From Coprinellus micaceus (taxonomy: Eukaryota; Basidiomycota; Agaricomycetes; Agaricales; Psathyrellaceae): a stretch of 64,000 nucleotides of DNA. The stretch spans positions 2,170,001 to 2,234,000 of the forward strand of contig OX596343.1 of the NCBI GenBank assembly GCA_951394405.1, given 5' to 3'. How positions within the stretch are numbered: position 1 is the first letter of the stretch; each line of letters begins with the position of its first letter. Positions 1 through 45,002 of this stretch are shown here, piece by piece. The translations under genes and the position numbers were made by a program. The notes under the pieces are model-generated. The model had not been told where the DNA came from, searched no databases, and saw only the letters and a list, made by a program, of their open reading frames with translations.

Positions 1-495
1 TCGTCATACACAGCTATCTTGTGACTCACACCAATTAGGTATAAATACCCCGTAGTACGACCCATGTAGCCTAGCATGTTATACTTTAATCTTAGTCCCC
101 TTTCGCCCACTCCACCTCTCCGCTCCCCATTCAATAAGCTCCTGCAAGACTTCCGCAACTCCACAAGACTCCCTTCGCATCACAAACCATAGCCAAGACA
201 GTGAACGTCACTGAGAACCTTCCACACTCCACTATTGTCTAGTAGTGAACCTGCCGTGTGACAACGCCAGACTTGCCTAGAAGATTGCCCAACTAGGAAG
301 CATCTGAGAGTATCCATGGACCCCTGACGTGTCATAGAAGAACGTGCAAGTCTGATACCAGTGCAACGTACTATTGTCTAATAGACGTGTGACTGCCTGC
401 ACGACATCCCAGAAGCTATTAGGAATAGGGGGATAGTACGACTAAGAAGCCGACCAGTGACGGACAATGCCAACTCCCTCGCCGAGGTCGTAACA
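1..495 (+). repeat. LTR A of gypsy element (left end outside window)
   Basis: Matches LTR C from 8022 onward and ends with TAACA at 491-495. It has a single copy of a roughly 42-bp unit (around 270-310) that is present twice in LTRs B and C. A TATA-like TATAAATACC lies near 41-50. It is in the same orientation as LTR C and opposite to LTR B. Confidence 0.85.
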
Positions 496-2720
496 ATTTG
501 TTCTTGGAGCGCGGTGTCGATCAGGTTTACAAATAAGTCCGGTGGAAGCATGACGACTTCTTTCGGATCTTCTTCGTCTAAACAGAGATCGGGTCGTCTT
601 GATAGAGCATCTGATTGGAACATCTTGGTACCTGGTCGATGTTTCAATTCGAAGTTGTACTTCAATAGGGTGAGAAATGCTCGGGCTTGTCGGGGACTGA
701 GTCGTTGGGGGTTCTTCCAATACGTGAGGTTCTGATGGTCGGAGTATACTGTTGTTACGAAGGGTGATCCTTGGATGAATGGTCGCCATTCTTCAAGAGC
801 GCGGATAATGGCGAGGAGTTCCCTGTCGTATATTTCGTAGTTTTTCTGGGCGCTGTCGAACATTTTCGACATGAAGCATATCGGATGTCTTGCTCCATGT
901 TCGTCTAACTGAGTTAGAACAGCTCTGGATGCATATTTGGAGGCATCTGCTTCGATCTGGTACGGCTGGTCTGGGTTTGGGAGGTGGAGTACTGGGTATG
1001 ACGTGAATTTCTCTTTAAGGAGGTTGAAGGCTGTGTTACATTCGTCAGACCAGACGAATGGGACGTCCTTTCCTTGTAGAGCGTGTAGTGGGGCAGTGAT
1101 AGTGGAGTAGTTCTTGATGAAGCGTCGATAGAAGTTTCCAAAGCCTAGGAATGATCGCACTTCCTTTAGCTTTGTTGGGATGGGCCATTCGGTTAGTCCC
1201 TTGATTTTGTCTGGATCCATACGGATTTTTCCATGTCCGATGATGAATCCTAGAAAATCAACTTCTGGGACTTCGAATGCACATTTGTCAATGTTGGCGG
1301 GGAGTCCGGCCTTCCTGAGCTTGCGAAGGGTACGGAAAGCTTCTTTTCAACATTCTTCCTTAGTTTCTCCTGCTCCCAGCGTGTCGTCCATGTATACTTT
1401 GACCCATGGTGGTTCTTCGAGTTCTTCAGATGTTTTTACAAGGGCATTTTTGTCGGATCTTTTGACGAGAGCCGTTTCTTCAATGATGTCTGGTCCTTGA
1501 ATGACATCATCCATGAGTCGTTGGAAGGTGGGTGGAGAGTTTTTCAGACCGAAAAACATGACTGTGGGTTCAAACAACCCTCGTTGGGTTGAGAAGGCCG
1601 CTTTCCATTGGTCTCCTTCTTTGATTCGGACGTTGTTGTATCCCCATTTCAAGTCGATCTTGAAAAAGTACTTGGCTTTCTGGAATCTTTTGAGGAGATC
1701 GTCGATTCGGGGGATTGGATAAGCGTCAGATATTGTGTGTTCGTTGAGGTATCAATAATCTTGGCAAAGTCGGAGTTTCCCACTCTTTTTCTTTACGAAA
1801 AATACTGGGGAACCCATAGGTGATTGGGAGGGTCGGATTCGTCCTAATTTCAGGTTTTCTTTGATGAAATCTTTGACTTCTTTCTCCTGATCGGGTGAAA
1901 GAATGTATGGTTTCATTCTTCTTGGTTGAAAACTATCCTTGACGTTGATTGCGTGGTCATATTTCGTACTGGCTGGGAATTTGTCGGCGTTTTTCTTGCT
2001 AAAGACGTCGAGAAATTCGTGATAGGCCTCCGGTAGCTTTGCCTTGATCTCTTCTTCGGTCTTTTCTTCGATTTCGTCATCGAAGTCGTCAAACTCATCG
2101 AATTCGTCAGGGTATTCAGAGTAGGTGGGTAGGATGAGTTTGCGTGATAGCGTGGTTCTTGCAATGTAGATAGGGGCAGGTATCCCCTCTTCTTCTTCGA
2201 GTTCATCGTTTTGGAGATAGAAGACTTCGACTTCTATCTGTGGATCCAGTTCTATTTCGGAAACTTCGATCGGTACTGGGTTGGTGTCAGGTGTTCGCCA
2301 TGTTAGAGTGCCAAGCTTCCAATCTATGATCGGGTTTTCGTCTTGGAGCCAAGGGAAACCTAGAATGATGGTTTGTTTCCCAAGGCCACAAATGAAAAGT
2401 TGGTGGGTCTTGGTCTTCTGATTGATGGTGATAGGGAGTCTGACGTAGTGGGTGATGGTCCCATGCTTATTGGGGGTTCCATCGACATTTTTTGCTTCAA
2501 TGGGGTAGCGGAGTGGGGTGGTCTTGATTCGGTAGTCTTGAGCGAATTTGGAGTCTATGAACTTTCCTCCTGCGCTGCAATCGATGAAACCTCGGGTGTC
2601 GATGTTTCGGTCTTCTTGAGTGATGCGGACAGGGATGTGCATGCTTTGGTTACTTGTCTCGGCTATCAGCATGGATCGGATGCACAGCGATGGAGAGATA
2701 GCCGATTGTTCCTCCTTCAC
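496..2720 (-). pseudogene. pol: pol: protease, reverse transcriptase, RNase H (truncated, two internal stops)
   Basis: An aspartic-protease-like segment (FIDCSAGGKF) is followed by RT with the YMDD catalytic box ([11 protein letters not shown]) and RNase H with conserved DAS, the RELLAI helix and the SDHQNL aspartate. It ends at LPPDLFVNLIDTALQEQI, where LTR A begins. Two in-frame TGA stops break it: at 1752-1754, in RT after RLCQDY, and at 1347-1349, after TKEEC. Both fit CGA-to-TGA transitions. Gag and pol overlap by a few bases at 2717-2720 in different frames, which suits a -1 frameshift arrangement, but this is inferred. The copy cannot make a full polyprotein. Confidence 0.9.
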
Positions 2721-4200
2721 TGAAAATCCGGTTCGAGTTGCATGCTCCTGAACTTGGCGAAGATTCTTTCTTCTTCCGCACCCGTGTATTGGGCCAGAAG
2801 AGACCGGATGTGTCGTGCTGTATCGGCGGTAGGAGGCTTGGAGATAGCTGCGATAGCTCGGCTGTTTGATGGAGATCCGTAACGATTTTGGTATGATTCG
2901 TTACGGGGTTTCTTGGGTTGACGGCATTCTCGGGCGAAGTGTCCTTTTCGTCTGCAGTTGTAGCATTCTTGTTTGTTCATGTATTCCCTTCTCTGGGTTT
3001 GTTCCTCCATGGTCATGGCGTCAACTTCCATGGCATAAGGATCTTTGATTGGCTTCTGTGTGGGTCTAAACCCTTGTGCGACAAATGGTCGTGATAACCC
3101 CATTCGTTGATCGTTTTGTTGTCGGTATTTGTTGTCGAAGGTGATGGCTGCTTTCACCCATTCTTCGAAATCGGTGGGTTCGTCGAGTTGTTGAGCCATT
3201 CTTTTGACTAACCCGTCTCTGAGGAGTGGTTTCAGGTATCCGAGGGCAGTGCGATCATTGCCCTCAAGCTTGAATTCGGCTGCGTCTGCTAGTGTCCTCC
3301 AGTTGGTAATGAAGGTTTGAGCCGATTCCTTCGGTGATTGCTGCTTGTTCTTGAGATAGTAGTGTGCGTCATCTTCCTGGTATTGCTTCTTGAATGTCTT
3401 CTCGAGTTTGGTCCAAAATTTGTTATACTTGTCAGACTTGTATTCTTCTGATTTCATATAGAGTTTCCTCCATATCAGGGCTTCTCCACTTGTTAGCTTT
3501 GAAAGAACAAGGACTATCTTCTTTCGGTCCTTTCCTTCGAATTGTTCTTGTTAGAATTCGAAGTAAAGCTCCACCGAGTCTTTGAAAGCTTGGAAGCGCG
3601 TTCGGTCTCCGTCATAGTCTTTGACGGATACCTTGGCGTCGGATCCGGTGATGGTAGTGGTGCTGATGACTGGTGGGTTCTCGGGGTTCGGGGGATCTCC
3701 GTGTTCGGACATTGTCACGTTGATGTCTTCTTTCTGTTCAGGGGAATTCCCTTCGGTTTGTTCTTTGATTGCTGATGGATACGATACGAGCGGGGGTGGT
3801 GCTGGTGGTCCAAAAAAACTTGGTATTGGATGTTCTGTCTTTGGTGTTGGTGCTCGTGATCCTTGTCTAGATCTAGACACTTGTCTTTCGTATGGTTTAC
3901 CCTGATGGGATACTGGCGATGGTGCTTGCGATCCAAACGGTGTGATTCCGGTGGAGTGGAAACTTAGTGCTAAACTTTCTTCCTTTGCCCTCTTGGTGGC
4001 TTGTTGTTCAAGCAATTGCTTTACTTGTTCCTCGTGGAGATCCTTTGATCTTTGTTTGTTGATCTTGTGGATCTTGATAGCTTGTGCTTGTCGTTCTCTG
4101 TGTTGGCTTATCTGATTTTGCTTAGACCTGTATACAAAGTCTTTTTCGTGTTCGTCTTCATGGTTTGGTACTTGTGCTTGGTCTACCTCAGTTGTATTAC
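2717..4200 (-). pseudogene. gag: gag, capsid and CCHC nucleocapsid (one internal stop)
   Basis: The capsid-type region contains FEEWVKAAITFDNKYRQ and ends with a retroviral zinc knuckle, CYNCRRKGHFAREC (CX2CX4HX4C), followed by a basic tail. A TAA stop at 3551-3553 (after LYFEF) splits the frame, and reading continues in frame on both sides. The N-terminal part (about 4015-4200) is charged and Gln/Lys-rich, coiled-coil-like; no convincing ATG was fixed, so the start is approximate. The 5' leader runs to LTR B at 4437. Confidence 0.85.
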
Positions 4201-4436
4201 ACGGGTATTGGAGTTGGTATGGGCACGGTTGATGTTTGCAGATGGTCCAGACGTTTCCGTCTTCGTTTTCCTCACACCCGTAGTCGAGCCTATCGAGTTT
4301 ACTGAAGGTATGGTGATTTCCAAAGCACGACTGTTCTGGTGTTTCTGGAGTCGGCGGTCTGCTTCGTTGATCCGTGATGTCGTTGGCTTGTTGCGTTCGT
4401 TTAGAACAAAGGCAACATTGTTGGAGCTTGTTATTC

Positions 4437-5226
4437 TGTTACGACCTCGATGAGGGAGTTGGCGTTGTCCGTCACTGGTCGGCTTCTTAGTCATACTATC
4501 CCCCTATTCCTAATAGCTTCTGGGATGTCGTGCGGGCAGTCACACGTCTATTGGACAATAGTACGTTGCACTGGTATCAGACTTGCACGTTCTTCTATGA
4601 CACGTCAGGGGTCCACGGATACTCTCGGATGCTTACTAGTTGGGCGATCTTCTAGTCAAGTCCGGCTTACAGATGCTTCCTAGTTGGGCAATCTTCTAGG
4701 CAAGTCTGGCGTTGTCACACGGCAGGTTCACTACTAGACAATAGTGGAGTGTGGAAGGTTCTCAGTGACGTTCACTGTCTTGGCTATGGTTTGTGATGCG
4801 AAGGGAGTCTTGTGGAGTTGCGGAAGTCTTGCAGGAGCTTATTGAATGGGGAGCGGAGAGGTGGAGTGGGCGAAAGGGGACTAAGATTAAAGTATAACAA
4901 GCTAGGCTACATCGGATAAACTATGGGGTCTTTATACTACTTTGGAATGAGTCATGGGATAGCTGCATATGATGATATAGTGAGGTCATAGTGGAGCGAG
5001 TGGAGTAAATAGTGGGGGAGTGGAGTATTAGTGGAGTGCTTACTGCACATGATGTCAGAGTAGCTGCGGGGTAGCTGCGGAGTCGTAGTAAGCGCATACT
5101 GTGCATGAGTCAGGGGTAGCTGCGGAGTCGTACATACTATGAGTCATAAAAAGAGAAAAAGAGAAAAGAAAAGAAATAAGGTGATCGTGCATACGTAGGA
5201 GGGGAGATGTGAAGCGAAGTGTAACA
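4437..5226 (-). repeat. LTR B, shared by the two halves of the gypsy element
   Basis: A full 790-bp LTR bounded by TGTTA and TAACA, inverted relative to LTRs A and C. A polypurine-like tract lies directly outside its U3 end (5227-5240, read on the minus strand as TGTGAGGGGGGTAT). Gag leader begins at its U5 end. It contains the duplicated 42-bp unit. Confidence 0.88.
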
Positions 5227-5266
5227 ATACCCCCCTCACAAGATTTGAGCCTCTGGCTCGAATGGT

Positions 5267-6307
5267 CTAGTCCCAGCCGTTCCCTTCGTGCTCGAATTGG
5301 ATGTCCCCGTCATCATTCCAACCGCTGTCGAACTTCCACTCCTCGTCGATCTCCATGAGATCGGGCATCTTTTTCTTTTGTTGACGGCGGTGGTTGCGAG
5401 GGGAGCGGCGGGGTTTCTGAGGTTTGGAGGGGCAGTCGGTGGCGTAATGGTTGGGGGCATGCTTCTTGCAATGGATGCAAGCGAAGAGGGTGTGATCAAC
5501 TTGCCAATGGCCCTTTTGCCCACATGCCTTGCACGTGAGCCCTTTGCGCTTCTCCTTTTCCTCCTTTGAGAGTCGGTGCATGGGGTACAGCCCATAGCGT
5601 TTGGTGCGGAGGTTGTAGTTGCGGAGGAGGAGATGGGCCCGGTGCACAGCGATGCGGACCTCGTTGATGTTTTCCTCGAGGACGTCAGTCCAAGATTTCA
5701 AGCATCGCTTGGCGTCTTGGAGTGATTCCTCGAGGATGGCGCGGATATAGGGAGGGGGTGAGGCTGCGATGACGGCGTTGACGAGGTTGTTGATTCTGGT
5801 GATTTCTTCTTTTGCCTGTTCAGCGTGTTGGATGGCGTGGGCCCAGTGCGCGTCGGGGGAGTTGTACTGGGCGGCGGTGATGAGGGTTCCTCCAGTTCCG
5901 GTCTGCTTGACGATGTCTTCGTATGTCTTCATATTGGTGAGGGTGGATTCGGCATAGGCGACCTCTGCATCCGTAAAAGCGATGCGGAGGTCAATGCTTT
6001 CCGGGTCAACGGCGGCGAAGATGCGGCGTGGAAGGTGCACAACGTCGGGGGCGACAAGGAGGGATCCGGTAGAATAATCTGCCCACTGACGATGTGTGGC
6101 AGGAGGAGGGAGGGGCGGTGCGAAGATGGACCAGTGGTCATTTTTGGGGGTGTTCGGGGCCGAACCCAGGGGAACGTAGCCAGCCTGGCGCAAAATCTGG
6201 GCCGCACCCTGCAGGGCATTGATGACGGCGGGAGTAGAAGAGACGGTTGAGGCGTAGGAGGGAGAGGCGGTCTTGGAGGAGGCATTGGAGGTGGTGGTGT
6301 TGGTCAT
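5267..6307 (-). CDS. ORF3 of the gypsy element, Cys/His nucleic-acid-binding type, unknown role
   Basis: This 346-residue open frame lies 32 bases downstream of the integrase stop and just before the polypurine tract and LTR B, the position of env or accessory genes in LTR elements. The start is the ATG at 6307 (MTNTTTSNAS); a few in-frame codons precede it. The N-terminus is Ser/Thr/Pro-rich and the middle is predicted helical (AEQAKEEITRINNLVNAV). Near the C-terminus is a double Cys/His cluster, CKACGQKGHW followed by CIHCKKHAPNHYATDC, then a basic stretch and an acidic tail. No transmembrane segment or signal peptide is apparent, so an envelope role is unlikely. A gag-like chaperone or RNA-binding function is possible but inferred. 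Unlike gag and pol it has no stop codon. Confidence 0.7.
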   Translation of the reverse strand: MTNTTTSNASSKTASPSYASTVSSTPAVINALQGAAQILRQAGYVPLGSAPNTPKNDHWSIFAPPLPPPATHRQWADYSTGSLLVAPDVVHLPRRIFAAVDPESIDLRIAFTDAEVAYAESTLTNMKTYEDIVKQTGTGGTLITAAQYNSPDAHWAHAIQHAEQAKEEITRINNLVNAVIAASPPPYIRAILEESLQDAKRCLKSWTDVLEENINEVRIAVHRAHLLLRNYNLRTKRYGLYPMHRLSKEEKEKRKGLTCKACGQKGHWQVDHTLFACIHCKKHAPNHYATDCPSKPQKPRRSPRNHRRQQKKKMPDLMEIDEEWKFDSGWNDDGDIQFEHEGNGWD

Positions 6308-6338
6308 TGTAGGATGGAGGTGTTGGTTCAATTTGGAG

Positions 6339-7776
6339 TCACAAACCGTTGTCTTTCTTATAGTCTTCCAGAGTCTCTTGGCTATGCTCTAGTTCGTCCT
6401 CTTTGAACCACTTGGTTTCGTCATAGCCAAGCCATTTGACGAGATATTCCACAATTCCATTACATTTGACCCTGTGATTGATGATTCCTTCGACTTCGTA
6501 CTCCTCTTCTCCACCAATGATGTCAGGTGGAGGTTCTGGGTGTGAGGGGCCATGGGCATCGGTGGAGTTGAATGGTGATAGAAGCGAGATGTGAAAAACG
6601 TTGTGGATCTTCCACCCCTTCGGGAGCTTCAATCGATATGCACGGAGTCCAATCAGTTCAATGATTTTGAATGGTCCCAGTCTCTTGGGTTGCATCTTCT
6701 TTGATTGGTATGGAAGCTTCAGGTTCCTTGCTTCTAGCCAGACTTGGTCGCCTAACTTGAATGGCTTCCAAGTCTTGTCCGTTCGTTCGATCATGCGGTT
6801 TCTTGCTAGTTCATGGGCGGATAATGCTTCATCTCGGGACTTTTGAAGCTCCTTGAATCGTTCCTCATTGTCTGGGAAGTTTGTCTTGTCAAATGCTTCC
6901 GGGAGGGCATGAGGTTGAGTTCCCATGATGAGTTCAAAAGGGGTGTGGGTTCTATCAGCATGTTTGCGGGAATTGTGAACGAACTGTAGGATTGGTAGGG
7001 CTTGGCTCCATGTTGCTGGGTTTGCGGAGCAATAGATAGCAAGATATGCTTCTATTTCTTGGTTGACGCGTTCGGTACCTCCATCTGTCTGAGGATGAAA
7101 GGCAGTTGATAGTGCGGAGTTGATTCTGAGGCGTTCTAGAAGGTCGTGGAACTTCTTGGACGCGAATTGGGGGCCTTGATCTGAAATGATTTTGTCGGGA
7201 AGGCCGTAATCGGTGAAAACACGGCGAACAAAAGCATCTGCGGTTTGCTTGGCGGTGATCGTCTTGTTGCAAGGTTCAAGAATTACCCCCTTCGTTAGAC
7301 CATGATCGACCACGATCATTATGGAGTCGTATCCTTTTGACGGTGGTAGGTTGGTGATGAAGTCTACCGATAGTTGGGTAAAGGGGCGGTTCGATTTGGG
7401 TCCGGTGATTGGAAGTAGTGTGGGTTTCACAGGTTGTCGGTTGATTTTGAACTGTTGACATTCTGCGCATCCCTTGACATAGGCTTTGATGAATTTGCAC
7501 ATTCCTGGCCACCAGTAATCTTCTTTGACGGTGTTGAACGTTCCAAGTTCACCGGGGTGTCCGATGGTTGCTGAGTCATGGTGTGATTGAACAATCTTGC
7601 GTCTGAGTTCAATATCGTTGGGAATGTAAGCTTTTCCCTTTCGGAAAAGCATGTGTTTGTCATCTTTGGTTTCCACAGTCCAGTCTTGCAGGTCATTCTG
7701 GAGGTCTGTGGGGCCTTCTTCCAATAGGAGTTTAAGCACATCAGCTGCTTCTAATTCCATTTTGTCGGAGTTGAGG
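6339..7776 (-). CDS. Integrase with C-terminal chromodomain (5' end cut at LTR C)
   Basis: The N-terminal HHCC zinc-binding region (SHHDSATIGHPGE, then CAECQQFK) is followed by the DDE core: LSVDFITNLPPS, the DQGPQFASKKFHDLL aspartate, and the glutamate in TERVNQEIEAYL. A GPY-type segment (KRLGPFKIIELIG) and a chromodomain (EYEVEGIINHRVK, then YLVKWLGYDETKWF) complete it. The chromodomain places the element among chromoviruses, whose integrases target heterochromatin. The frame is open, but it starts inside LTR C because RNase H lies on the far side of LTR B; the residues before ILNSDKMELE are LTR-derived. Confidence 0.9.
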
Positions 7777-8820
7777 ATTTGTGTTACGCTTCGCTTCACA
7801 CCTCCTATCTTACCCTCGCACTGCCACCACTTTATTTCTTTTCTCTTTTTATGACTCATAGTGACGTAGGACTTCACAGCTACCCCGCAGCTACCCCTGA
7901 CTCATGTGGAGTATACGCTCCATGACTCCACAGCGATCTTTGACTCAGACTCCACGCGCTCCACTATGTACTCCACGCGCTCCACTATTTACTCCACTCA
8001 CCCCACTATTACCTCACTATTTCGTCATACACAGCTATCTTGTGACTCACACCAATTAGGTATAAATACCCCGTAGTACGACCCATGTAGCCTAGCATGT
8101 TATACTTTAATCTTAGTCCCCTTTCGCCCACTCCACCTCTCCGCTCCCCATTCAATAAGCTCCTGCAAGACTTCCGCAACTCCACAAGACTCCCTTCGCA
8201 CCACGAACAACAGCCGAGATAGCGAACACCACTAAGAACCTTCCACACTCCACTATTGACTAGTAGTGAACCCGCCGTGTGACAACGCCAGACTTGCCTA
8301 GGAGATCGCCCAACTAGGAAGCATCTGTAAGCCGGACTTGACTAGAAGATCGCCCAACTAGTAAGCATCTGAGAGTATCCGTGGACCCCTGACGTGTCAT
8401 AGAAGAACGTGCAAGTCTGATACCAGTGCAACGTACTATTGTCCAATAGACGTGTGACTGCCCATCTCAGTCACCGTGGAACAACCCCCTTGAAGGGGTA
8501 TGAATTTTCTGTTCCAATGGGGCCTTCGGGGGTCTGTTCCAACCATGTTCCCCTTTCCATTATTCCACCTTCTGGTCCACCATTCCACATTGCTGTTCCA
8601 AATATCCATTCCAATTCCCCATTGGGAACCAAATCTGTTCCATATTCCACCTTCTGTTCCACCATATTCCCCCTTCTGTTCCACCCTTCCACAGCTCATG
8701 TTCCACCCATACCCAGCAGTAGTGGGGGCTTCTGAATGGGTGCAGCTATGCATATAATGTATCTGTTTAGATGTTCTGTAAGTTAATAAGCCCCAAAACA
8801 TGTTTAAGCATAACTGTCTT

Positions 8821-21520: not shown

Positions 21521-22674
21521 CCGTCATTTCTTCCCTCACCTGCGGCGGCACCACCAAGGCACCCATGAGGACGCCTTCCTTAGCCATGGATCAGCATGTT
21601 CTCTTTTCATGGTTAGTATATATCGCGGTCTCAAATCCTGATATGTACTTACCAGTGGATCTCTGCCCGCATGCATCAGTTCACACTTAAGCGCCCGTTG
21701 CGCCATGCTGTGTTTGAACCTCGATCTGGGTGACGGTGGGAGGGAGGCTGTGCCCTGCGTTGGAATGGAAGCTGTGGTCCCTGTCCGGATTCGCTCCTTG
21801 CTTTCCTCCACCACTAGGCCGAAGTTGAGGAACTCATCATCCTCCTGTTCCTCCTGTTTCCCTCATCCTCCATTGGCAATACCTGCTGAATGTTTCTCCA
21901 CAAACATACCCTATCCAAGGATCATCCCGACACTACAATGGCAGCGAGACGTCATGTTTCCTCTTCTTCTATCACCGCTGGCACCAACTCCCTCATCACA
22001 CCATCCAACGTCATCGAGCGACCATCTGCTACCAAACGCCAGCTTTCCGTCAGTCTCGACGACGACCTCGCACAGGATGGACATGTCAAGCACCCTCGAC
22101 TTCATCCTGCTACACCTCCCACTTCTCGGAGACTGAGTGCGGTGTCGGGAAGGCACTCTCGCCGAGCTCCATCCTTCCCTGTGTCGGTCAGCGACGCTCG
22201 ACCTGTACCCCTTCAAGAGGACAACCCAAAAACTTGTCTCCGAGACAATGTTAACGACCAGCACAGCAGCGTCGATCCACTTGGTTCCCAGGGGCGTCCG
22301 AATATAACCACATCATGTATGCATGTGTAGTTAGGGCCGCTGAATGTCTTGCTGAAGAATGTTCTCATTTTCTTAGTCCCTTCTCAGTTCACATCCTCGT
22401 CCATGGCGCCAAGCCTAGCAGGGCCTTCTCGGGTGATCCAGCACTTGTTCGCAAATGCCTCGGATTTCACAATTGGCCAGTTCAATAGCTACAATTTCGG
22501 CCAGGCAGGAGGTATGGACCACTCTGCACAGTGTTCTTGCATTACAAAGTGAATTGAGACTGCCAACTTAGACCAGCAAATGCAACTGCTCATGCAACTG
22601 CTTCAAGCAGACCTTGCCCAGCGCAGTCTCTCACAACCTGTCAGATATAACGAGGCAAATGGGGTCACCATCAC

Positions 22675-23143
22675 TAAGGCATGTCACGAGTCCGGGCTAC
22701 CTGCAGGTACTTGCAGGTAGACCCGTGGGAATACCCGTGGGAAACCTGACCTGCAAATCCAGGTAACCCGTGGGAACAAACCTGTACAGATCCAGGTCAC
22801 AGCCTTGAAACCACAGGTACTTGCATGGTGCAAACATCTGGGCCAGATGTCACCACTGGAAGTTATATTGGGTCTGTATGACTGCATTAGTGAGTTGTAT
22901 GATGTAGTTTAGGTGTATATACAATGTTAGACACCATTTTTGGGGGGTGTCCACTAGTATTTGCCCTATACTATGCTTGGCACCTGCACTATTACCTGCG
23001 ACCTGACCTGCGACGACCTGGACTCACAGGTACAGGTGACCCGTGGGAAAATACCCGCACAGATCCAGGTAAGGCATATTTTTCTGCAGGTACCTGCCCC
23101 ACAGATCCAGGTCAACCTGTGGGTGCACTCGTGACATGCCTTA
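22675..23143. mobile_element. hAT-like MITE (TAAGGC family) inside the ULD-type gene
   Basis: Inverted ends TAAGGCATGTCACGAGT and an exact 8-bp duplication ACCATCAC at 22667-22674 and 23144-23151. 469 bp, non-coding, with repeated CAGGTACCTG- and CCCGTGGG-like motifs. Removing the element plus one duplication restores an uninterrupted reading frame. The ends are close to those of the MITE at 11000. Confidence 0.92.
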
Positions 23144-23696
23144 ACCATCACTGATGCTCTTGGCACCAAGATGGTCCTGCCACCCAGCATAATGCGTGAA
23201 TTCCCAGTATGACTAGCTGTTATCTGCCTAGTCGTCTGTGCTAACATAGCCAAAGGATGTTCATGACCTCATGCTGAAGCATTTCTGGGGAAAGATAGGG
23301 GAGGAGCGTGTGGCTCAAAAAAGGTATTGTATGGTCACAGAACACAGTGGGATACTTGTCCAGGCTGAGGACTGGGGTTGTGTCTTGAACTCAGGTGAGG
23401 GACTGATCATGTGTATGACAGTTGAGAGGGTATGGGCAGAGTCAGTGCAGGACACTTGCCCCCAATGTGGCAAGACAAGACTTGGGACATACTATGAAAA
23501 TGATGGTTGGATCAAGTGGTATGTATCCTGTTTCCACTTGATCAATTTTTGCTGTGCACTGAGCATTATTTTGTATAGTCGAAGATGTACCAAGTTGTTC
23601 CCATGCTCAAGCAAGAAGCCCCAAAACATTAACAATCCTCCTTGTCATGACAATGGGATTGGATGTTTCCGACATGTTCAGCAAACCTTTGTCCAA

Positions 23697-24799
23697 GTGG
23701 GTATTTTATACTCATAAATGAAGACTGCTTATGACTCTCCAGGGAGTATGTGTATGTCACTGTGTCTCTTGACATGTGTGGGCCTGGGTGGAATTGCTGA
23801 TCAGGCCCTTTGCTCACTCTTCAGGATGTAGGTTGCCATGCCTCTTGGTGTGTGCAGGTGGAATTGTTGATCTAGCCCTTTCCTCACTCTCCAGTTTGTA
23901 TGTTGCCATGCCTTCTGACATGTGCAGACAGAATAGCTGATCTGGCCCTTTCCTCACTCTCCAGACTGTATGTGGCCATGTCTTGTGATGTGTTGGGTGG
24001 GACTGCTGATCTGGCCCTTTCCTCACTCTCCAGACTGTGTGTTGCACTGCCTCTTGACATGTGCAGGTGGGATTGCTGATCCTGCCCATTCCTCACTCTC
24101 CAGTATGTATGTTGCCATGCATTTTGACATGTGCAGACAGAATGTCTGATCTGGCCCCTTGCTTACACTCCAGGAAGTATGTTGCCCTGCCTCGTGACAT
24201 GTGCAGGCAGAATGGTTGACCAAACCCATTATTTACTCTTCAGACTGTATGTTGCCATACCTATTGATGTTTGCAGGTGGAATTGCTGACCTGGCCCTTT
24301 CCTCACTCTTCAGACTGTATGTTGCCATACCTATTGATGTTTGCAGGTGGAATTGCTGATCTGGCCTTTTTCTCCCTCTCCAGGATGTATGTTGGCATGC
24401 CTCTTGATATGTGTAGATAGAACTGCTGATATAGCCCTTTCCTCACTCCCCAGTGGGTATGTTGGCATGCCCCTTAATGTGTATAGGTGGAATTCCTGAT
24501 CTGGCCCTTTCCTCACTCTCCAGGATGTATGTTTTCATTGCTCCAGATTCCTGCAGCTGGATGCTCACTTCATTTTCTTTTCAGAAAGTAAGTCATTCTC
24601 CATCTCAACTCTGTATCAGCTCCCACATACAAGTGCTCCAATTATCACTTTCTTGCTATCCAGCAAGTATGTCCTTTATTTCCTTCAACATCTATCTTCT
24701 GTACTTACCCTCTCACAGTGGGTATGTCATAACACATATATATGAATACCATCTATCCCCTAAATGTTCCATGGGTCTTATCTTTCCCTGTGTACTCAG
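23697..24799 (+). other. Codon-by-codon intron array: 15 successive 3-nt exons
   Basis: Exon triplets: GGA 23743-23745, GAT 23825-27, TTT 23895-97, ACT 23965-67, ACT 24034-36, TAT 24104-06, GAA 24174-76, ACT 24244-46, ACT 24314-16, GAT 24384-86, TGG 24454-56, GAT 24524-26, AAA 24585-87, CAA 24664-66, TGG 24719-21. Each has a YAG acceptor directly before it and GTATGT, GTAAGT or a close variant directly after it. Joined they read GDFTTYETTDWDKQW, followed in frame by RKAIQQEES and a stop. Introns before TTT through the second GAT at 24524 are 66-67 nt and homologous (GTATGTTGCC...CTGATCTGG...CCTCACTCTCCAG). The first two and last four differ in length (46, 79, 58, 76, 52, 78 nt) and sequence. 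All are phase 0. As DNA the region looks like a 70-bp tandem repeat of about 11 units. Splicing is inferred from sequence only. Confidence 0.7.
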
Positions 24800-24900
24800 C
24801 GCAAGGCCATCCAGCAAGAAGAGTCAAGATGTGTGTACATTTCCTTCCATGCTGGCCCTTTGACTAATTATCCTCACTCACAGTTGAAGAACTGCCATAA

Positions 24901-25390
24901 TAGGGCAACCTCCACTTCAAGTACAAGACTGCAAGTGTATGAATAGCAAGTCCCAGTATGTCTCATACACAGACTACCTTCATTTGCTTATACCCCACCC
25001 AGTTCAGCAAGTAATCCTCACAAGATTGGTGGTTCATGTGGATCTTGGGCATTGTAGTCATGGGTTTTGTTGTGTCTCTCCTTTCTTTCTCCTTCTCTTT
25101 GAATATGTTCCTTTTCTGTGATGGACGTCAGACATACTGTCCCTGGTCCTGCCTTCATGTGATCCAAACCTGTTCCATGATTCATATTATTTCCATTTAT
25201 GCACACATTGGCTTTGAGACGCATGGACAAGAGCATGAAATTTGAATTCAGGTCAGAACATCAACTCTGTCATGTTTTTCATCTGGTGATTTTAGTCCAT
25301 GGTATATGCTTGGCACTCAAGACTGACACCGTAAACAAGGAGCAATGTTGATCTACATTGATGTCAGGTGTACTACAGGACAGCCTGAGT
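24901..25390. other. 3' flank of the ULD-type gene, nothing supported
   Basis: AT-richer sequence with no recognised gene. It probably holds the 3' untranslated region. The upstream part of repeat R may extend into it. Confidence 0.4.
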
Positions 25391-25990: not shown

Positions 25991-26339
25991 CACCTAAAAT
26001 TGATTTTTGTGGTCCAGGTGGGAAAAGCTGACCTTGAACTATCTGGACATGTCATGAACCGCCTGTGATCACCTTGCCTTGGACTTTCAAGCCCACCTTG
26101 CTCGTTTCGTCCCAGACAACACCATTGCAACTGGGAACACTGGTTTCCCCTCAGCCCATGGGCTTGAACCATCTGGGAATGCCAAGTTGGACTCACCTTG
26201 GCCTTGGTCTGGACATCCAATGTCCAGACCACCTTGAACTGACTGCTCCAGCAGGGGGAAGTTGGTTCAAGATGCTCCCAGCTGGCGAAAGGTGAGCAGG
26301 CCCTTATATAGCCACATTAATATTTTCTTCCCTTCGTTG
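25991..26339. other. No supported feature
   Basis: Unique-looking sequence with CCTTGG/CCAAGG repeats (CACCTTGCCTTGG, CACCTTGGCCTTGG). It is probably intronic or flanking sequence of the acidic ORF downstream. Confidence 0.35.
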
Positions 26340-26432
26340 CACCTGGGTCACATCATTTCCCAGCAAAATTAGCTGGGCATACTGGGGGGGTAGGCCCAGC
26401 TAATTTTGCTGGGAAATGATGTGACCCAGGTG
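26340..26432. mobile_element. 93-bp palindromic micro-MITE, CACCTGGGTCAC ends
   Basis: Arms of about 39 bp are perfect inverted repeats around a 14-bp loop. The flanks CTTCGTTG (26332-26339) and CTTTGTTG (26433-26440) differ by one CpG-type transition, giving an 8-bp target duplication. The ends resemble CACCTAGGTCAC of the 2.6 kb element beginning only 150 bp away. Confidence 0.82.
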
Positions 26433-26540
26433 CTTTGTTGACCACCTCAAACCATGTCCTGGTTTTGTGCCCCATGTCACTAGTACTCTCAGAGGATGAC
26501 ACCCTGAGCTTGTCTTGTTCTCCATTATCTTAGGGTGTAG

Positions 26541-31944: not shown

Positions 31945-33332
31945 TCAGTTGTCGATATCCATCCCCGCTCCCTCTGAGTCAAGATAGGCAGTGTATTGGT
32001 CCCACATCTCCTGTGCAACACGATCCCGGTACCGTGTTGCTCGAGTCTTCTCTGTTGAAGTGACTGCTTGGGTCGACAAGGCGCCATAATTATCAAAGTT
32101 GTGCATAGCTCCAGGGTTCGGATCCAAGTCATCTGCGCTATTGGTGAGGTATGTCTCAATGTCTTCAGGGTCGTGTTCCATGAGAAAATTGTGAACAGCT
32201 GCGAGTGCTGCTGGAATTTGTGCTTGAATACTGAGCGAGAATTGAGGTGGCCGGGTTAGAATCTCCCACTTCATCTTCATGACCCCAAATACCCGCTCTA
32301 CGACATTCCGTGCTCCTGCATGACGAAGATTATAGAGTTCTTCTTTTTTTGCTGGCCTGAGTGGTGAGTTCTAGTGTTAGCACAAGGAACACACCTGACA
32401 TGGTTCTGCCCTGCTCACCTTTGATTAGCACGGCCCCATTCTGCCAAATGATACCGTGTGCCACGGTAGGGAACGAGAAGGTGATCACAAATCCCAAACC
32501 CTGCGTCAGCTAGGTATACCTTGCCATTTGGAACACGAAAGTCAACATCCCGCGCTTGTGCCCACATGGTGGCATCAGCAGTTGAGCCTTTCCACCCACT
32601 CAACATATACAGGAAACGCATGTCGAAGGAGACGGTGGCGAGACAGTTCTGTGTGACACCACCCTTCCGATTACGTGCAGCGGCACGTTCCTCCGATGAG
32701 GGGCAGCAGTTGATGTGGGTGCCATCAATGGCGCCTAGGGCATTGTTGAAGAATGGCGAGAACTTGGGATTGCTGGAAATGAACTCGGGTACTGGAGCAT
32801 CATTCTCTGGCAGCTTGACATATTTGGCGTAGAATGGGCCCGACGAAACCGCACTCAAAACCGCACGGAAATATCTAGATGTCATTGTCAACCCATCATA
32901 CATGGATTAATGGAAAGAAAGGTACTTCGATATGGTTTCATTTGACCGTTGGAATCTCTCGCCAACGTGCCGGACTGAGAGACCAGTCACGCACATGTAC
33001 AAGAAAATCGCAGCCTGCTCCTCCACCGTCACACCTTTCCTTGAGTCATCAGCACCACATATGACACGCAGCTCATGAACAAACAGTAGGAAGACATGCA
33101 GTGACATCCCCAGCTCTGTTCTAATTCGCTCCGGGTGCCCGTTCATGAGCTCCTCCACCCATTCCCGCCCTGTCAACTTCGAAGTGTGATAGTCCTGTTT
33201 CCAGTAGTGGGCTGATGAATAGAGCTGTACAGCAAACGCAGCAATCTGGATAAGGTATGAGGCAGCGAGGATCAATTTTTTCCTCCGGTCGGGAGAGAGA
33301 AACGGTGAGGAAGAGGAGCCCCAAGTCGCCAT
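31945..33332 (-). CDS. HARBI1-type DDE nuclease (transposase) of the Harbinger element
   Basis: Exons 33332-32926, 32874-32419 and 32356-31945 (minus) give 424 residues. The introns of 51 and 62 bp have proper GT..AG ends, and joining restores ISKYFRAV and NQRPAKKEEL. The helix-turn-helix-like part (VRHVGERFQRSNETISK) precedes the DDE_Tnp_4 core: GAIDGTHI (first D), YLADAGF (second D) and RNVVERVFGVMK (catalytic E), all present. The start is the ATG giving MATWGSSSS. Length and order are usual for fungal Harbinger transposases. There are no stops or frameshifts. Confidence 0.9.
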
Positions 33333-33729
33333 TCGGAGCAGGGGTAGCAAGTGCTGCCACTAACCCAGTCCCACCATAATATATTCATTGATTCCCCTTA
33401 GATATTCTGAGAAATGGGGTCAGAAGTGGTGTATATAAATAATATACATGCGAGGGAACGTCCAAATCCCCGAAGATAAAGCGACGGAGGCCATTCAAAG
33501 TCAAAAGACCGAAGCTTCGCCAGAATAGGCGCTCGCGGGGCGGTGCCCTGATCGCGGGAAATTTTGACCGAAATAGTCGCTTTACCCTTTTGGGCCGGCA
33601 TCAAACCATAACAAGTTCAATGGTTTGGTATCCGAACAGGCTCTAAGCGCCCGTGTGACATCACCCAATGCCGCAACTGGATTTGGTTGCAGCGGCAATT
33701 ACATCACCGTGCGCTTCTCTTACCTCAAC

Positions 33730-40531: not shown

Positions 40532-43500
40532 TAAGGGTCCAACGTATTAAACTACTTACTGAGTATACTCAGTATCTACTGCTTAGATTAGTGATTAGGA
40601 GTAGACAAAGTTGTGAGACCTAAGCACTCATTAATCAAGCAGTAATTAGTTTCCTACTCAGTGGTCGGAATGGCTCAGAATTGAGCCGAGACTGAGTCAG
40701 CGTGAACGCCTGGATGGCGCAATCGTGTGTTTCCATATGGTACACACTTTGCTGATGGGCTGCCGTCGTTTGTTTGGTTGGGACGGTCCTCGATCTTCGA
40801 CGCCGTAATATGGACCCACAAGCACTTCTAAAGCTCAAATAAAGTCCAAAATGTGCGTCAGACCCCATCCTGATGTGCGCGGAACAATTTTCAACTTTAT
40901 AAAACATTGTAGTGTATGGAGAGAGCTCGATACATCGATAGGGGACTCTACGGGGCTTCTGCAGTGTTCCACTCCGACATGTTTGTGCCATCAATCCTCC
41001 CCAGCGACACATATACCTTTTTTTCCGAACGATTTTTGGCCTGACAACCATGCCCCCTGCCCTCAACCCTTTCAACGAGTTTGAGGCGCTCGCCGCAACC
41101 CTGACCAACCTGGTCAAGGGTCTCCCAACCGCCATCCCTTTGGCCAAAGCCAAGTCCCGCATCGTCACCGTCTTTACCAACAATCCCGTCCCCTCCAATC
41201 CACTTGAGCAATGGGAGGTCTTCGACAAGCGCATGAACGCGCTCTTTGGAGAAGACCTACGAGATGCCAAGACCAAGCGCCTACCGAACATCCAGCGAGG
41301 CAAGCATGGTCTCGATCTTGTCCTCTCCTATATCCAGGAGATGATGGCGTCAAGCTCCCTTGACTGGGTGGCTGCCATGCCCAAGATCCAGAGACTCGTC
41401 GATGAGGTGAAGGCCGTCAAGTGAGTTACCTATTTTATCTTCGGAGAGGAACTCCGAACATGCAGCTTAGGCACTCATCTCTCACAGGGATGCCGCTTCG
41501 AAAAAGACCCCAGCTACAGGCAAGTCAAAGAAGTCTGCCGGTATTGGCAGCAAGGGCAAGGAAAGGTCGACCCTCGCACTACTCGGATCGGGTGAGGACG
41601 AGTCAGAGGACGATGATTATGCCCCTCCCCGCCGTGAACCGAAGGATACGGACGATGAATCAGAGTCCGAGTTCCCAAGGGAGATCCACGATGCGGACGG
41701 GGAAGAGAACAGTATCGAGACTGATGCCTTCCGTGCTCTGGTGCGTCACATCCCATCCATTTCAGAGAGTTAGGGTTGAGGCACTCACTGTCCATACAGA
41801 TGACTGCGCGAGCGTCAAAAAAGCGCCAGCATGAGGTCGAAGAACCTCCTACCAAGACATCCACCTCCAACCCCCGGAAGGTATCCATTCAACTTCTATC
41901 CTTGTGGGAAGGTTGCTGACCATTGATTTAGTGCACTGTTTCTGACTTTGTTGAGCCCGTTGAGTCGGGCGATGAGTCGGATGGTGGATCGGCGCGTCGA
42001 AAGGTTGATGAGGCTGTTGCTACTGCTGCAGCTAAGAAGTCGTCGCGGCGGGGTCCTTCCAACACTAGCCGAGACCAGTTCAAAGATGCTGTCCCTGAGA
42101 CTGTGGTCGAGAACGGCGTGACATGGTTGAAGTGGTCGTTTCGGTGCAGGCACTGTGGGGCGTGAGTGGCATTATTTGTCGTCCTTTGTACACCATGTTT
42201 GGCTTACTGTCTTTCAACAGCATTCGGAAGTTCCCTCGTACCATCGACTTCCCGGGCTGCAAGATTGAAGATGAGCCATCCTTACCCAGGACCAGTAACC
42301 TCGCTACACATCTCCGTGTAGAATGCAAGCCCTACCTGAAGAAGAAGGCCGCACAGGCTGCTGGCGCTGGAGAGCCCGATGGTGACGAACCAGTGTCTGC
42401 TCATTACAACCTGGCCCCCGTTCGTGATGTCATGGCTGAGTACCTTGCGAAGGGCCAACTCAACCCAGCTATAAACCCCACCAAGGCTGGTTTCCTGAAG
42501 ATATTCGCCCTCTGGATTCTAGATGAAGACCTCCCGTGGACGACTGGCGAAGCCCCGATGCTCGACAAGCTCTTCAAGTACCTGAGCATCAAGCACGAGC
42601 TCCCCAGTGACACCACCGTTCGAAACGAACTCGCCCGCATCTATGCTGACCTGCATGGGAAGGTTGTGAAGGAGTTCTCGGTACGATTTCCGTGTTTTTG
42701 TTCATTCTATTTGGGCTTATCTACGGTGAACAGAACATCAAGTCTCGCATTTCGTACTCGACTGATACATGGACTACACGCCAGATGACCTACACGTTTG
42801 CGTGCACCATGGCATCCTTCATTGACGACGACTGGAATCTCATTGAGCGGGTCATCGACTTCAAGGCCCTGGAGGAGAATGAGCACGAAGGAGTCTATGC
42901 GGCCCGTGCCTTCGTTCAAGGTGCTCGAGGGATTGGGTCTTTGGATAAGATGAGTACCCCGTTCGTTTCACGAGCGCACTACAACTACTGACACAAAATG
43001 TTTATACTTCATGGCCCTGGCGACTGACAATGCAACTACGAATGACGAGATCTTCCGAAACGTCAGCCGGCACCTCCTTTCGCTCTACAAGATCAACGAA
43101 CACGCCGATGGCCACATCCGCTGCCTAGCGCACGTCATCAACCTTGTCGTTCAAGCCATCCTTGCGGGCCTCGATGAAGCCGACTCACTGTATGAAGACC
43201 CCATCAACGAGCTACGGAACAACGACGCCCACGACTACTACCTCCAGAACAAGGATACTCCCATCCATTATGATGTCACCCTGGATAGTGCCCAGGAAGA
43301 GCTCGAAGCTGCGCGCAATGACGACATGACCATGGAGTTTTTGGATATCAGCGAGTTCGACGATGAGCTTCTGGGCATTGATGATGAGATCGAGGATGAG
43401 CTGAAACAGCTCGGGTTGACAAGCGCCCTGAAGAAGGTGAGTGTTATGAATTTACGCATGCTCCACCTTCAAGCCGTTGACACACTGGTTACCAGCTTCG

Positions 43501-45002
43501 GTTCATCGTCAAGAAAATCGCCTCATCTCCCCAACGTCGCCAGCGGTTCTACAAGTTCTCTGAGGGGATCTATGGGGACCGCCGTGCAGATGAGAACAGC
43601 CGCGACAGCGCATTATTGAGGCTGCTGATGGTGGTCCGGGACGTTCGGACAAGATGGAACTCGACTCACGCCATGCTTTCTCGTGCGCTCCTTCTCCGTG
43701 AGGTGAGCTCAATGTCTCTATTTGCGTCGGACATGCTTGCTGAAAAGGTCATAGGCAATTGATGAATGGGTCATTCGCACTCCGGAGTACCGACATATCA
43801 TGCTCAGCAGGGATGAATGGAAGGAACTTGAGAGCTTGGAGGGTATTCTTTCAGTGTGTTCCCTTATCATCCTACGCATCTGGTATCTCACCCTTTGGTC
43901 AACTAGCCGTTTGCCGAGGTTACAAAGCAAGTCTCAGGATCAACCTACCCGACCATCCCCTTCAGTCTCCCCATCTACTACCGCCTTCATTCCCACCTCA
44001 AGTCGGTTCTGAGCACACCTAGTGCTCCTACCCGGATCTGCACTGCTATTGGGCTTGGGCTTTCAAAGCTCAACAAGTACAAGACCCGCGCCGAGAGCAG
44101 CCACTACCTTAAGATTGGGACTGGTACGTCCACTCAGAGCCTCTTCATACCCCGTTCACTGACCTGGTTGTATAAATCAGCCCTCCACCCATCCATGTGT
44201 GCTGCATGGTTCTCTAAGACTGCCGACTTCAGCCCCAATCCCGTCACGCACCAGCAAGACCAGGAGAAGAAGGTTGACGACCTCAAGACCATCTTCAAAG
44301 GTGTTGCGGAGAAGTACCAACGTGAACTCGCCGAAGAAAGGGAAGCCTCGACGCCCTCCATTCCATCTGCTTCATCATCCGCTCAGCCACTCCAGCGCTC
44401 TGGGTCGTCAGGGAGCTTCCTGGCCGACTTCTGCGATGTCCCCGACGTCAACCCTATTGAGGTTCCGACCGTCACACCCGCGGCTGCTCTGAAGGATGAA
44501 TTGGACCGGTATTGGCAGTTCGAAGGGGGACGGGGTGATTTGTTCGATCCATTGGGCTGGTGGAAGGTGCGTACACTACGTTCTTGCTTAATATGCTAAC
44601 TAAATGCCATCCTTGTAGAAGAACACTGTTCGGTTCCCCGTACTCTCACGGATGGCTCGGGATTACCTTGCAATCCCCGCCACGAGCGTCTCCGTTGAGC
44701 GCACATTCTCCAAATCTCGCCGCATTTGCACCGAGCTTCGCAGTTCACTACACACCTTGACCATCACCCAGTCTCTCCTCACGAAGCTATGGATCAATAG
44801 CAAGCATTTCCAGCTCATCGAACCTTCTCAACACCCCCAGAAGCGACGTAAGATCTCTGAGGACGACTAAATTTGGGGTCCCTCGAAGAACTGAGTAGAA
44901 ATTGGCACTAATTAATTAGACTATACTGATTACTATGTAGTATCTCATTACCAACTACTTACCCCTCGAACCCTAATCATAATCTATTTAGTTGGACCCT
45001 TA
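40532..45002 (+). mobile_element. hAT transposon, 4.47 kb, near-complete
   Basis: Short inverted ends TAAGGGTCCAAC and an exact 8-bp duplication TCCACACT at 40524-40531 and 45003-45010. It carries one multi-exon transposase gene with all expected domains. It was inserted into sequence already separating the two Tnp2 parts. Confidence 0.93.
41050..44870 (+). CDS. hAT transposase with BED-type zinc finger and dimerisation domain
   Basis: Spliced from about eleven exons. Clear introns are 41421-41487, 41741-41799, 41881-41931, 42162-42220, 42681-42733, 43437-43495 and 43703-43754, with others near 43856, 44125 and 44567. A basic, acidic-patch N-terminus precedes a BED-like finger (FRCRHCGA...HLRVEC), the RNase H-like core with SYSTDTWTTRQ (first D), ALATDNATTND (second D) and RTRWNSTHAML, and the C-terminal hAT dimerisation motif YLAIPATSVSVERTFSKSRR with the conserved E. 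One problem: the intron opening at about 42951 (ATGA|GTACCCC) has no AG at the expected acceptor (CTTCAT at 43007-43012), so splicing there may fail. Otherwise there are no stops. Confidence 0.85.

Follow-up and report, generated by a model that had tools for sequence, protein, structure and literature searches.

Runs of exons of only three base pairs are known from the NACHT-ANK (nank) genes of the truffle Tuber melanosporum, for which tens of alternatively spliced 3-bp exons, credited to Iotti et al. 2012, are mentioned in the available passages of four papers and are said there to diversify the C-terminal recognition part of the protein (PMC4986451, PMC3689799, PMC10197012, PMC9815663). The micro-exon genes of Schistosoma likewise combine very short exons (3-81 bp) with variable products, but they encode secreted parasite proteins, their exon sizes are mixed, their introns reach 5 kbp against 46-127 nt in the arrays described here, and the abstract states no run of one-codon exons (PMC10526429). 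The P450 genes of the basidiomycete Phanerochaete chrysosporium also have very small exons and short introns; the smallest exon, however, is 6 bp, the microexons are scattered, and the excerpts at hand describe no runs of one-codon exons (PMC1184071). The bicycle genes of aphids are likewise fast-evolving paralogues known by their gene structure, but form an insect effector family (PMC9168663), and the WD-repeat nonself-recognition genes of Podospora likewise exchange tandem units under selection on few residues per unit, with the variable residues lying in coding beta-propeller repeats and not in one-codon exons (PMC4986451, PMC9815663). Our literature search, with most subscription papers outside its coverage, found no one-codon-exon array in a basidiomycete. 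A Coprinopsis long-read annotation paper reportedly treats microexons, and the aphid bicycle genes have exons of other sizes than the 3-nt arrays.

In the present study we analyzed a window of 64,000 nucleotides from Coprinellus micaceus, in which an earlier note had read a run of fifteen one-codon exons, its author knowing of isolated microexons of this size but of no run so long; runs of 3-bp exons have been reported from the truffle, as cited above. The kind of structure is already known from the truffle, and what is new here is another phylum, another protein family and the hypervariability of the codons. As in the truffle NACHT-ANK genes, the runs of 3-bp exons (here nine arrays of 13-51 triplets, predicted) belong to a fungal family with many paralogues. 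Truffle NACHT-ANK, however, is described as an ascomycete NLR with NACHT and ankyrin domains and reported alternative splicing, whereas the present family carries ULD_2 and a zinc ribbon and its splicing is predicted from sequence. We consider it probable that this ULD_2/zinc-ribbon family has a C-terminal tail written as one-codon cassettes which are kept diverse; the splicing and translation of the codons, the exchange of cassettes and a role in recognition are what we infer.

The window gene is modelled from 21938 to 24900 on the forward strand (Table 1). Its protein matches ULD_2 (PF22893) with 46 bits, against a curated cut-off of 24.5 bits, and the protein of a second copy, L041, does so with 62.6 bits; in Pfam scans of these two proteins and four relatives ULD_2 alone was above cut-off, and neither NACHT nor ankyrin was found. 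Judged by its cysteines the window protein probably carries a zinc ribbon as well, the Pfam zinc-ribbon matches being below cut-off. The intron-chain search of the array segment gave sixteen GT-AG introns, all in phase 0, with fifteen exons of 3 nt between them; the introns of the best chain measure 46, 79, 67 (nine times), 66, 58, 76, 52 and 78 nt, and the joined triplets read GDFTTYETTDWDKQW (15 codons). This reproduced to the nucleotide what the earlier note had claimed, namely sixteen introns spaced by 3 nt, fifteen non-stop triplets and phase 0 throughout, followed by RKAIQQEES and a stop codon. When equal exon lengths of 0-9 nt were tried over this segment, complete chains were obtained with 3 nt (24 chains, the best having 16 introns) and otherwise with 7 nt alone (2 chains), the latter being a by-product since a second GT lies inside GTATGT. 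All 16 donors fit GTRNGT and all 16 acceptors are CAG. In the chance control, no chain was longer than four introns, either in 300 dinucleotide shuffles of the array segment or in 20 shuffled sequences of 20 kb, and in the remainder of the window 3-nt-exon chains did not exceed three introns on either strand. Position 24814 is a second in-frame acceptor for the last intron of the array. Other equal exon lengths (1, 2, 4, 5, 6, 9, 12 and 15 nt) were also tried across the window and rejected, as only 12 nt gave one five-intron chain, which has a stop inside and was taken as chance.

Table 1. Predicted features of the window gene and its array (positions in the window)
Feature	Position	Strand	Basis or remark
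Exon 1 of ULD_2 gene, ATG at 21938	21938..22316	+	corresponding borders in twin L002, clean frame
Exon 2, contains LFANASDFTIGQFNSYNFGQAG, by eye like N-terminal motif of relatives	22377..22511	+	gene model
Exon 3, broken in window copy by insertion 22675-23143	22572..23206	+	gene model
hAT-like insertion, 469 bp, 17-bp perfect inverted ends, 8-bp target duplication ACCATCAC	22675..23143	.	sequence comparison
Exon 4, ULD_2 domain (PF22893) and first half of putative zinc ribbon	23256..23518	+	Pfam, gene model
Exon 5, second half of putative zinc ribbon up to FRHVQQTFVQ; last ordinary exon ahead of array	23579..23696	+	gene model
Whole array, 16 phase-0 introns and 15 one-codon exons	23697..24799	+	chain search
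Tandem array, 70-nt units (67-nt intron and codon), 10.7 copies	23787..24533	+	repeat analysis
One-codon exon 1, GGA (G)	23743..23745	+	
One-codon exon 2, GAT (D)	23825..23827	+	
One-codon exon 3, TTT (F)	23895..23897	+	
One-codon exon 4, ACT (T)	23965..23967	+	ATT in twin L002
One-codon exon 5, ACT (T)	24034..24036	+	
One-codon exon 6, TAT (Y)	24104..24106	+	
One-codon exon 7, GAA (E)	24174..24176	+	
One-codon exon 8, ACT (T)	24244..24246	+	
One-codon exon 9, ACT (T)	24314..24316	+	
One-codon exon 10, GAT (D)	24384..24386	+	
One-codon exon 11, TGG (W)	24454..24456	+	
One-codon exon 12, GAT (D)	24524..24526	+	
One-codon exon 13, AAA (K)	24585..24587	+	AAA or CAA in the six C10 copies
One-codon exon 14, CAA (Q)	24664..24666	+	CAA, AAA or GCA in the six C10 copies
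One-codon exon 15, TGG (W)	24719..24721	+	TGG in 6/6 C10 copies
Penultimate exon RKAIQQEESR, 31 nt, phase 1 at end	24800..24830	+	gene model
Last exon, FEELP then stop TAA	24884..24900	+	gene model

The genome (50.3 Mb, 17 contigs) holds nine arrays with introns 3 nt apart, six on contig C10 and three on contig C3. DNA searches combined with the chain search placed the six C10 arrays within 0.3 Mb; they have 15, 15, 16, 14, 13 and 17 codons, and the tails read GDFTTYETTDWDKQW, GDFITYETTDWDKQW, RRWPQENPGLRWLQKW, QAWSPPLAARFQKW, QDLMADPIIAKQW and QISFLQQLFGPSPDKAW. The C3 group was reached via a genome search with ULD_2, which found nine loci over the cut-off, and consists of L041 with 51 triplets, L042 with 23 counted up to a truncation (its 3' end is missing) and L057, a decayed copy without the ULD exon, with 19 counted, plus a fragment in L058. 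Complete gene models were made for two copies only. L041 has 58 exons, 51 of them successive one-codon exons, in an open clean frame of 323 residues which ends in SRFHVLEE, and L002 (C10:2118413-2119743), the twin of the window copy (L001), has 22 exons, 15 of one codon, in a clean frame of 381 residues which ends in SRFEELP. The chain finder took 3-nt exons only, and its result is that unbroken chains with 14-52 introns exist. Intron length in the counted chains is 46-127 nt, mostly 64 nt on C3 and 66-67 nt on C10, and donors are GTRNGT in 182 of 192 introns, one donor being GC. The rule, which the earlier note had extended to unique introns outside the repeat, held at both ends of all six C10 copies. 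Its reading of the triplets as one-codon exons, with splicing predicted, is likewise supported, at the level of sequence, by the eight further arrays and by the frame resuming at a similar last exon in L041 and L002. Two irregular introns were seen on the reverse strand: one GC-AG intron in the 52-intron chain of L041, past the intron end at 5205 (TTG, then GCAAGT), and one in L008 (4359-4485), in which a CT microsatellite has raised the length to 127 nt with triplets still on both sides.

The C10 and C3 arrays both begin right after an FRH motif (FRHVQQTFVQ in the window), and in DNA searches the C10 units and the C3 units did not match each other. In the other ULD_2 loci on C9, C3 (3984627), C13 and C2 (L043-L046) a chain of four or more was found in none of the four, and by eye the C9 gene seems to run on in ordinary exons past the same FRH point. 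The loci G000:C3:3984627 and C13:983530 (L044 and L045) have equal scores on two contigs, which suggests a duplicated segment; L057 has a 5' flank in common with L044, its ULD exon being missing.

At least four of the nine arrays lie in damaged genes (the window copy, L008/L006, L042 and L057), complete frames having been checked in two copies only. In L008/L006 the exon preceding the array has a TGA close to its start. In the window copy the 469-bp insertion puts a stop in frame unless it is spliced out; the site is empty in the twin copy L002/L009, the twin being 99% alike to the window copy over the query, and the ends of the insertion are absent from L008-L012. Open frames at 42099-44599 on the forward strand, which seem to resemble a hAT-type transposase, are a possible source of this insertion. 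Near the 5' end of L057 (3293-3370) two 9-nt stretches, ATGGCCCAG and AAACTTGAA, lie by eye between CAG and GTRAGT and are perhaps fused one-codon exons, and near its 3' end CAC stands where CAG is expected, a lost acceptor. The 3-nt rule breaks down in this decayed copy.

The persistence of arrays in damaged copies would also suit removal of the whole array as one long intron of tandem intron-like units, in which case the triplets would never be in the mRNA, and L041 stays in frame after such removal. In L041, however, this would amount to a 3493-nt intron beside upstream introns of 58-62 nt; moreover, splice sites are retained in nearly all units and in the unique end introns, and it is the triplets, not the bases adjacent to them, that vary most (see below). 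The choice of triplets bears on the same question. Among 168 triplets we found no stop codon where 12.6 were expected, and none of 20,000 shuffles, in which bases were exchanged within the columns of each array, was stop-free; this set was curated by hand to leave out L002 as the twin of L001, the first L042 triplet (truly an upstream exon), the last L042 GAA and the decayed ends of L057. Among the 97 distinct triplets there were likewise no stops against 6.1 expected (P 0.0004). However, the reverse complements of stops were nearly as rare (1 against 11.7 expected) and therefore the stop evidence is moderate and counts for less than it seems. TTA, CTA, ATA, CTG and AAG are also missing, and 0.8-5.5% of comparable three-triplet sets, by choice of arrays, are wholly absent. 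That the missing triplets are not stops only, but also sense codons and the reverse complements of stops, is a point for removal of the whole array. More weight attaches to the frame resuming at a similar last exon in two dissimilar copies (SRFHVLEE, SRFEELP) and to the triplets being the most variable positions, and we regard whole-array removal as unlikely.

In 42 centred units of L041 the exon positions, with 1.92, 1.66 and 1.56 bits, are the three most variable of 67; the next, an intron position, has 1.47 bits, and 52 of the 64 intron positions are below 0.4 bits. The mean pairwise difference within each of eight arrays is 0.54-0.74 for triplets against 0.10-0.39 for intron interiors (Table 2), the triplets being near saturation and the introns ranging from young to old. 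In L010, L008, L012, L011, L001 and L057 one or more exon positions rank below some positions of the intron, and of the three codon bases the wobble base varies least in six of the eight arrays, the exceptions being L008 and L057.

Table 2. Mean pairwise difference of triplets and intron interiors within eight arrays
Array	Triplets	Intron interiors	Ranks of exon positions among 63
L041	0.695	0.099	1-2-3
L042	0.744	0.217	1-2-3
L057	0.726	0.292	1-8-2
L001	0.630	0.249	2-1-13
L011	0.558	0.117	1-2-25
L012	0.536	0.110	1-2-15
L010	0.631	0.388	3-6-25
L008	0.659	0.281	4-2-3

In L041, 31 unit pairs which are identical over 60 intron bases differ by a mean of 0.87 triplet bases, and identical 64-nt surroundings enclose TTG, CGA or TTC, up to three bases apart. 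Between L011 and L012, whose ULD exons have a dS of 0.055, differences were counted at 19 of 42 aligned bases in triplets and at 61 of 1183 outside them (Fisher P 5e-13), a comparison in which units may be paired with non-orthologous partners. The twins L001 and L002 differ at 16 of 1118 bases, 1 of 45 in triplets, with no codon excess. The dN/dS of the ULD exon is 0.26-0.63 in 14 of the 15 C10 pairs, the twin pair having one silent change only. In the exon ahead of the array (exon 5 of the window gene), L011 and L012 show 10 replacement differences to 1 silent, and dN/dS ranges from 0.25 to 2.76 over the 15 C10 pairs; diversification may begin already there, upstream of the array.

Unlike in neutral concerted evolution, the codons are not homogenised as the introns are, which therefore points either to selection for diverse codons or to protection of the codons during intron conversion. 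In the latter case the codons would be real without diversifying selection, each kept by purifying selection while gene conversion homogenises the introns; the identical surroundings in L041, which hardly came to enclose TTG, CGA or TTC by point mutation alone, and the fairly constant last three codons across C10 fit this well. Conversion tracts would then need to miss the triplets repeatedly, however, and the tails differ among paralogues, the recent pair L011/L012 included. We consider this combination rather doubtful, though it is the strongest of the alternatives, and favour selection for diverse codons, since even copies of recent origin have dissimilar tails.

We propose that the C-terminal tail would be an array of cassettes, each made up of one codon and a complete intron of short length, about 64 or 67 nt. 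Fungi with short introns splice chiefly by intron definition, under which an exon of 3 nt would require no exon recognition: once the preceding intron is removed, the upstream exon would end in these three bases. The codons could then be joined or skipped in any combination with the frame kept. Unequal exchange could add, remove or reorder codons with the frame intact because the cassettes are tandem repeats, and with the codons themselves held diverse, length and sequence of the tail would differ from copy to copy, one residue per step. The codon blocks of L041 (TTC-AAC twice, AGG-x twice, TTC-GAA three times running) are consistent with exchange between tandem cassettes.

The near-identical introns with unlike codons between them could also have arisen from introner-like mobile introns which landed at each codon boundary of a formerly continuous exon. 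Such an origin leaves insertion at exactly every three bases without explanation, and TTC-GAA three times running looks rather like tandem duplication of intron plus codon. Furthermore, the DNA matches of the array units, which are at least those in the C10 and C3 clusters, include none that is dispersed among the matches listed, and dispersed introners were rejected as a candidate; we hold this origin to be highly improbable. Just as little credence is due to the idea that the array is an expression device, in which the introns matter as enhancers, decoys or small-RNA hosts and the codons are filler. Dozens of tandem introns have a precedent in SNHG14 (PMC11608373), but filler codons need not vary more than introns, and searches detected no common sequence in C10 and C3 introns. 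Non-coding RNA was likewise rejected as a candidate: an Rfam scan at E up to 1 of window positions 21900-25100, with the C3 arrays outside it, gave one sub-threshold match, outside the array, and none in the window array itself.

Relatives of the window protein were sought among the best 7999 candidates scored, which yielded 23 related proteins, 22 of them from Ephemerocybe angulata, Coprinellus aureogranulatus and micaceus, Candolleomyces eurysporus and Coprinopsis marcescibilis, all Psathyrellaceae, and one from a JGI record. Two of the 23 (P0008 and P0010) end in SRFEELDG and SRFEELAD, like SRFEELP of the window, and in eight annotated relatives that were aligned the likeness stops near the same FRH point. 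The earlier note would have taken homologues without YETTDWDKQW as a refutation, which they are not, because this peptide is hypervariable. The N-terminal motif of relatives, reading for example SNFSVNGSTFNAIQGDM, was set by eye beside the text description of the NLR05/08/22 group, an amyloid-like N-terminal motif of basidiomycete NLRs which the source, in the part available, describes by hydrophobic residues, a G[DN] pair and a 25-residue core. A genome search with the motif of one relative gave a single weak match (E 0.036), which lies next to the ULD_2 exon of C9 rather than at a known NLR, and the link of the family to NLR amyloid-like motifs is weak.

Analogy with truffle NACHT-ANK and with further nonself receptors of fungi makes it most likely that the tail serves as a recognition surface pressed to diversify, a role which we infer because the paralogues are clustered, the tails variable and the core constrained (ULD dN/dS), and because of the truffle precedent. 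More tentatively, and short of calling it probable, we suggest a mushroom nonself-recognition system in which a sensing tail of single-codon cassettes would be edited residue by residue through genomic exchange between cassettes, the frame staying intact, with optional skipping, and whose origin would be independent of the truffle NLR arrays. If the codons can be skipped, L041 could in principle give up to 2^51 in-frame forms. Should the preferred reading of diverse one-codon cassettes be true, runs of codon-sized exons, as many as 51 of them successive, would occur also in a basidiomycete family with different domains, and the codons, not the introns, would be what evolution acts on. It would provide a system where recombination alters a protein by single residues, and splicing of 3-nt exons by intron definition could be tested in organisms that can be cultured. 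Such tails may escape gene finders, as the annotated relatives whose similarity stops near the FRH point suggest.

The window has some further features. Long open frames on the reverse strand at 378-7901 look like a putative Gypsy-type retrotransposon, and those at 32415-33359, also on the reverse strand, presumably resemble a Harbinger-type nuclease. By eye we also noticed that gcacctgggtcacatcatttcccagcaaaattagctggg and its complement form an inverted repeat, about 39 nt long, at roughly 26339-26433.
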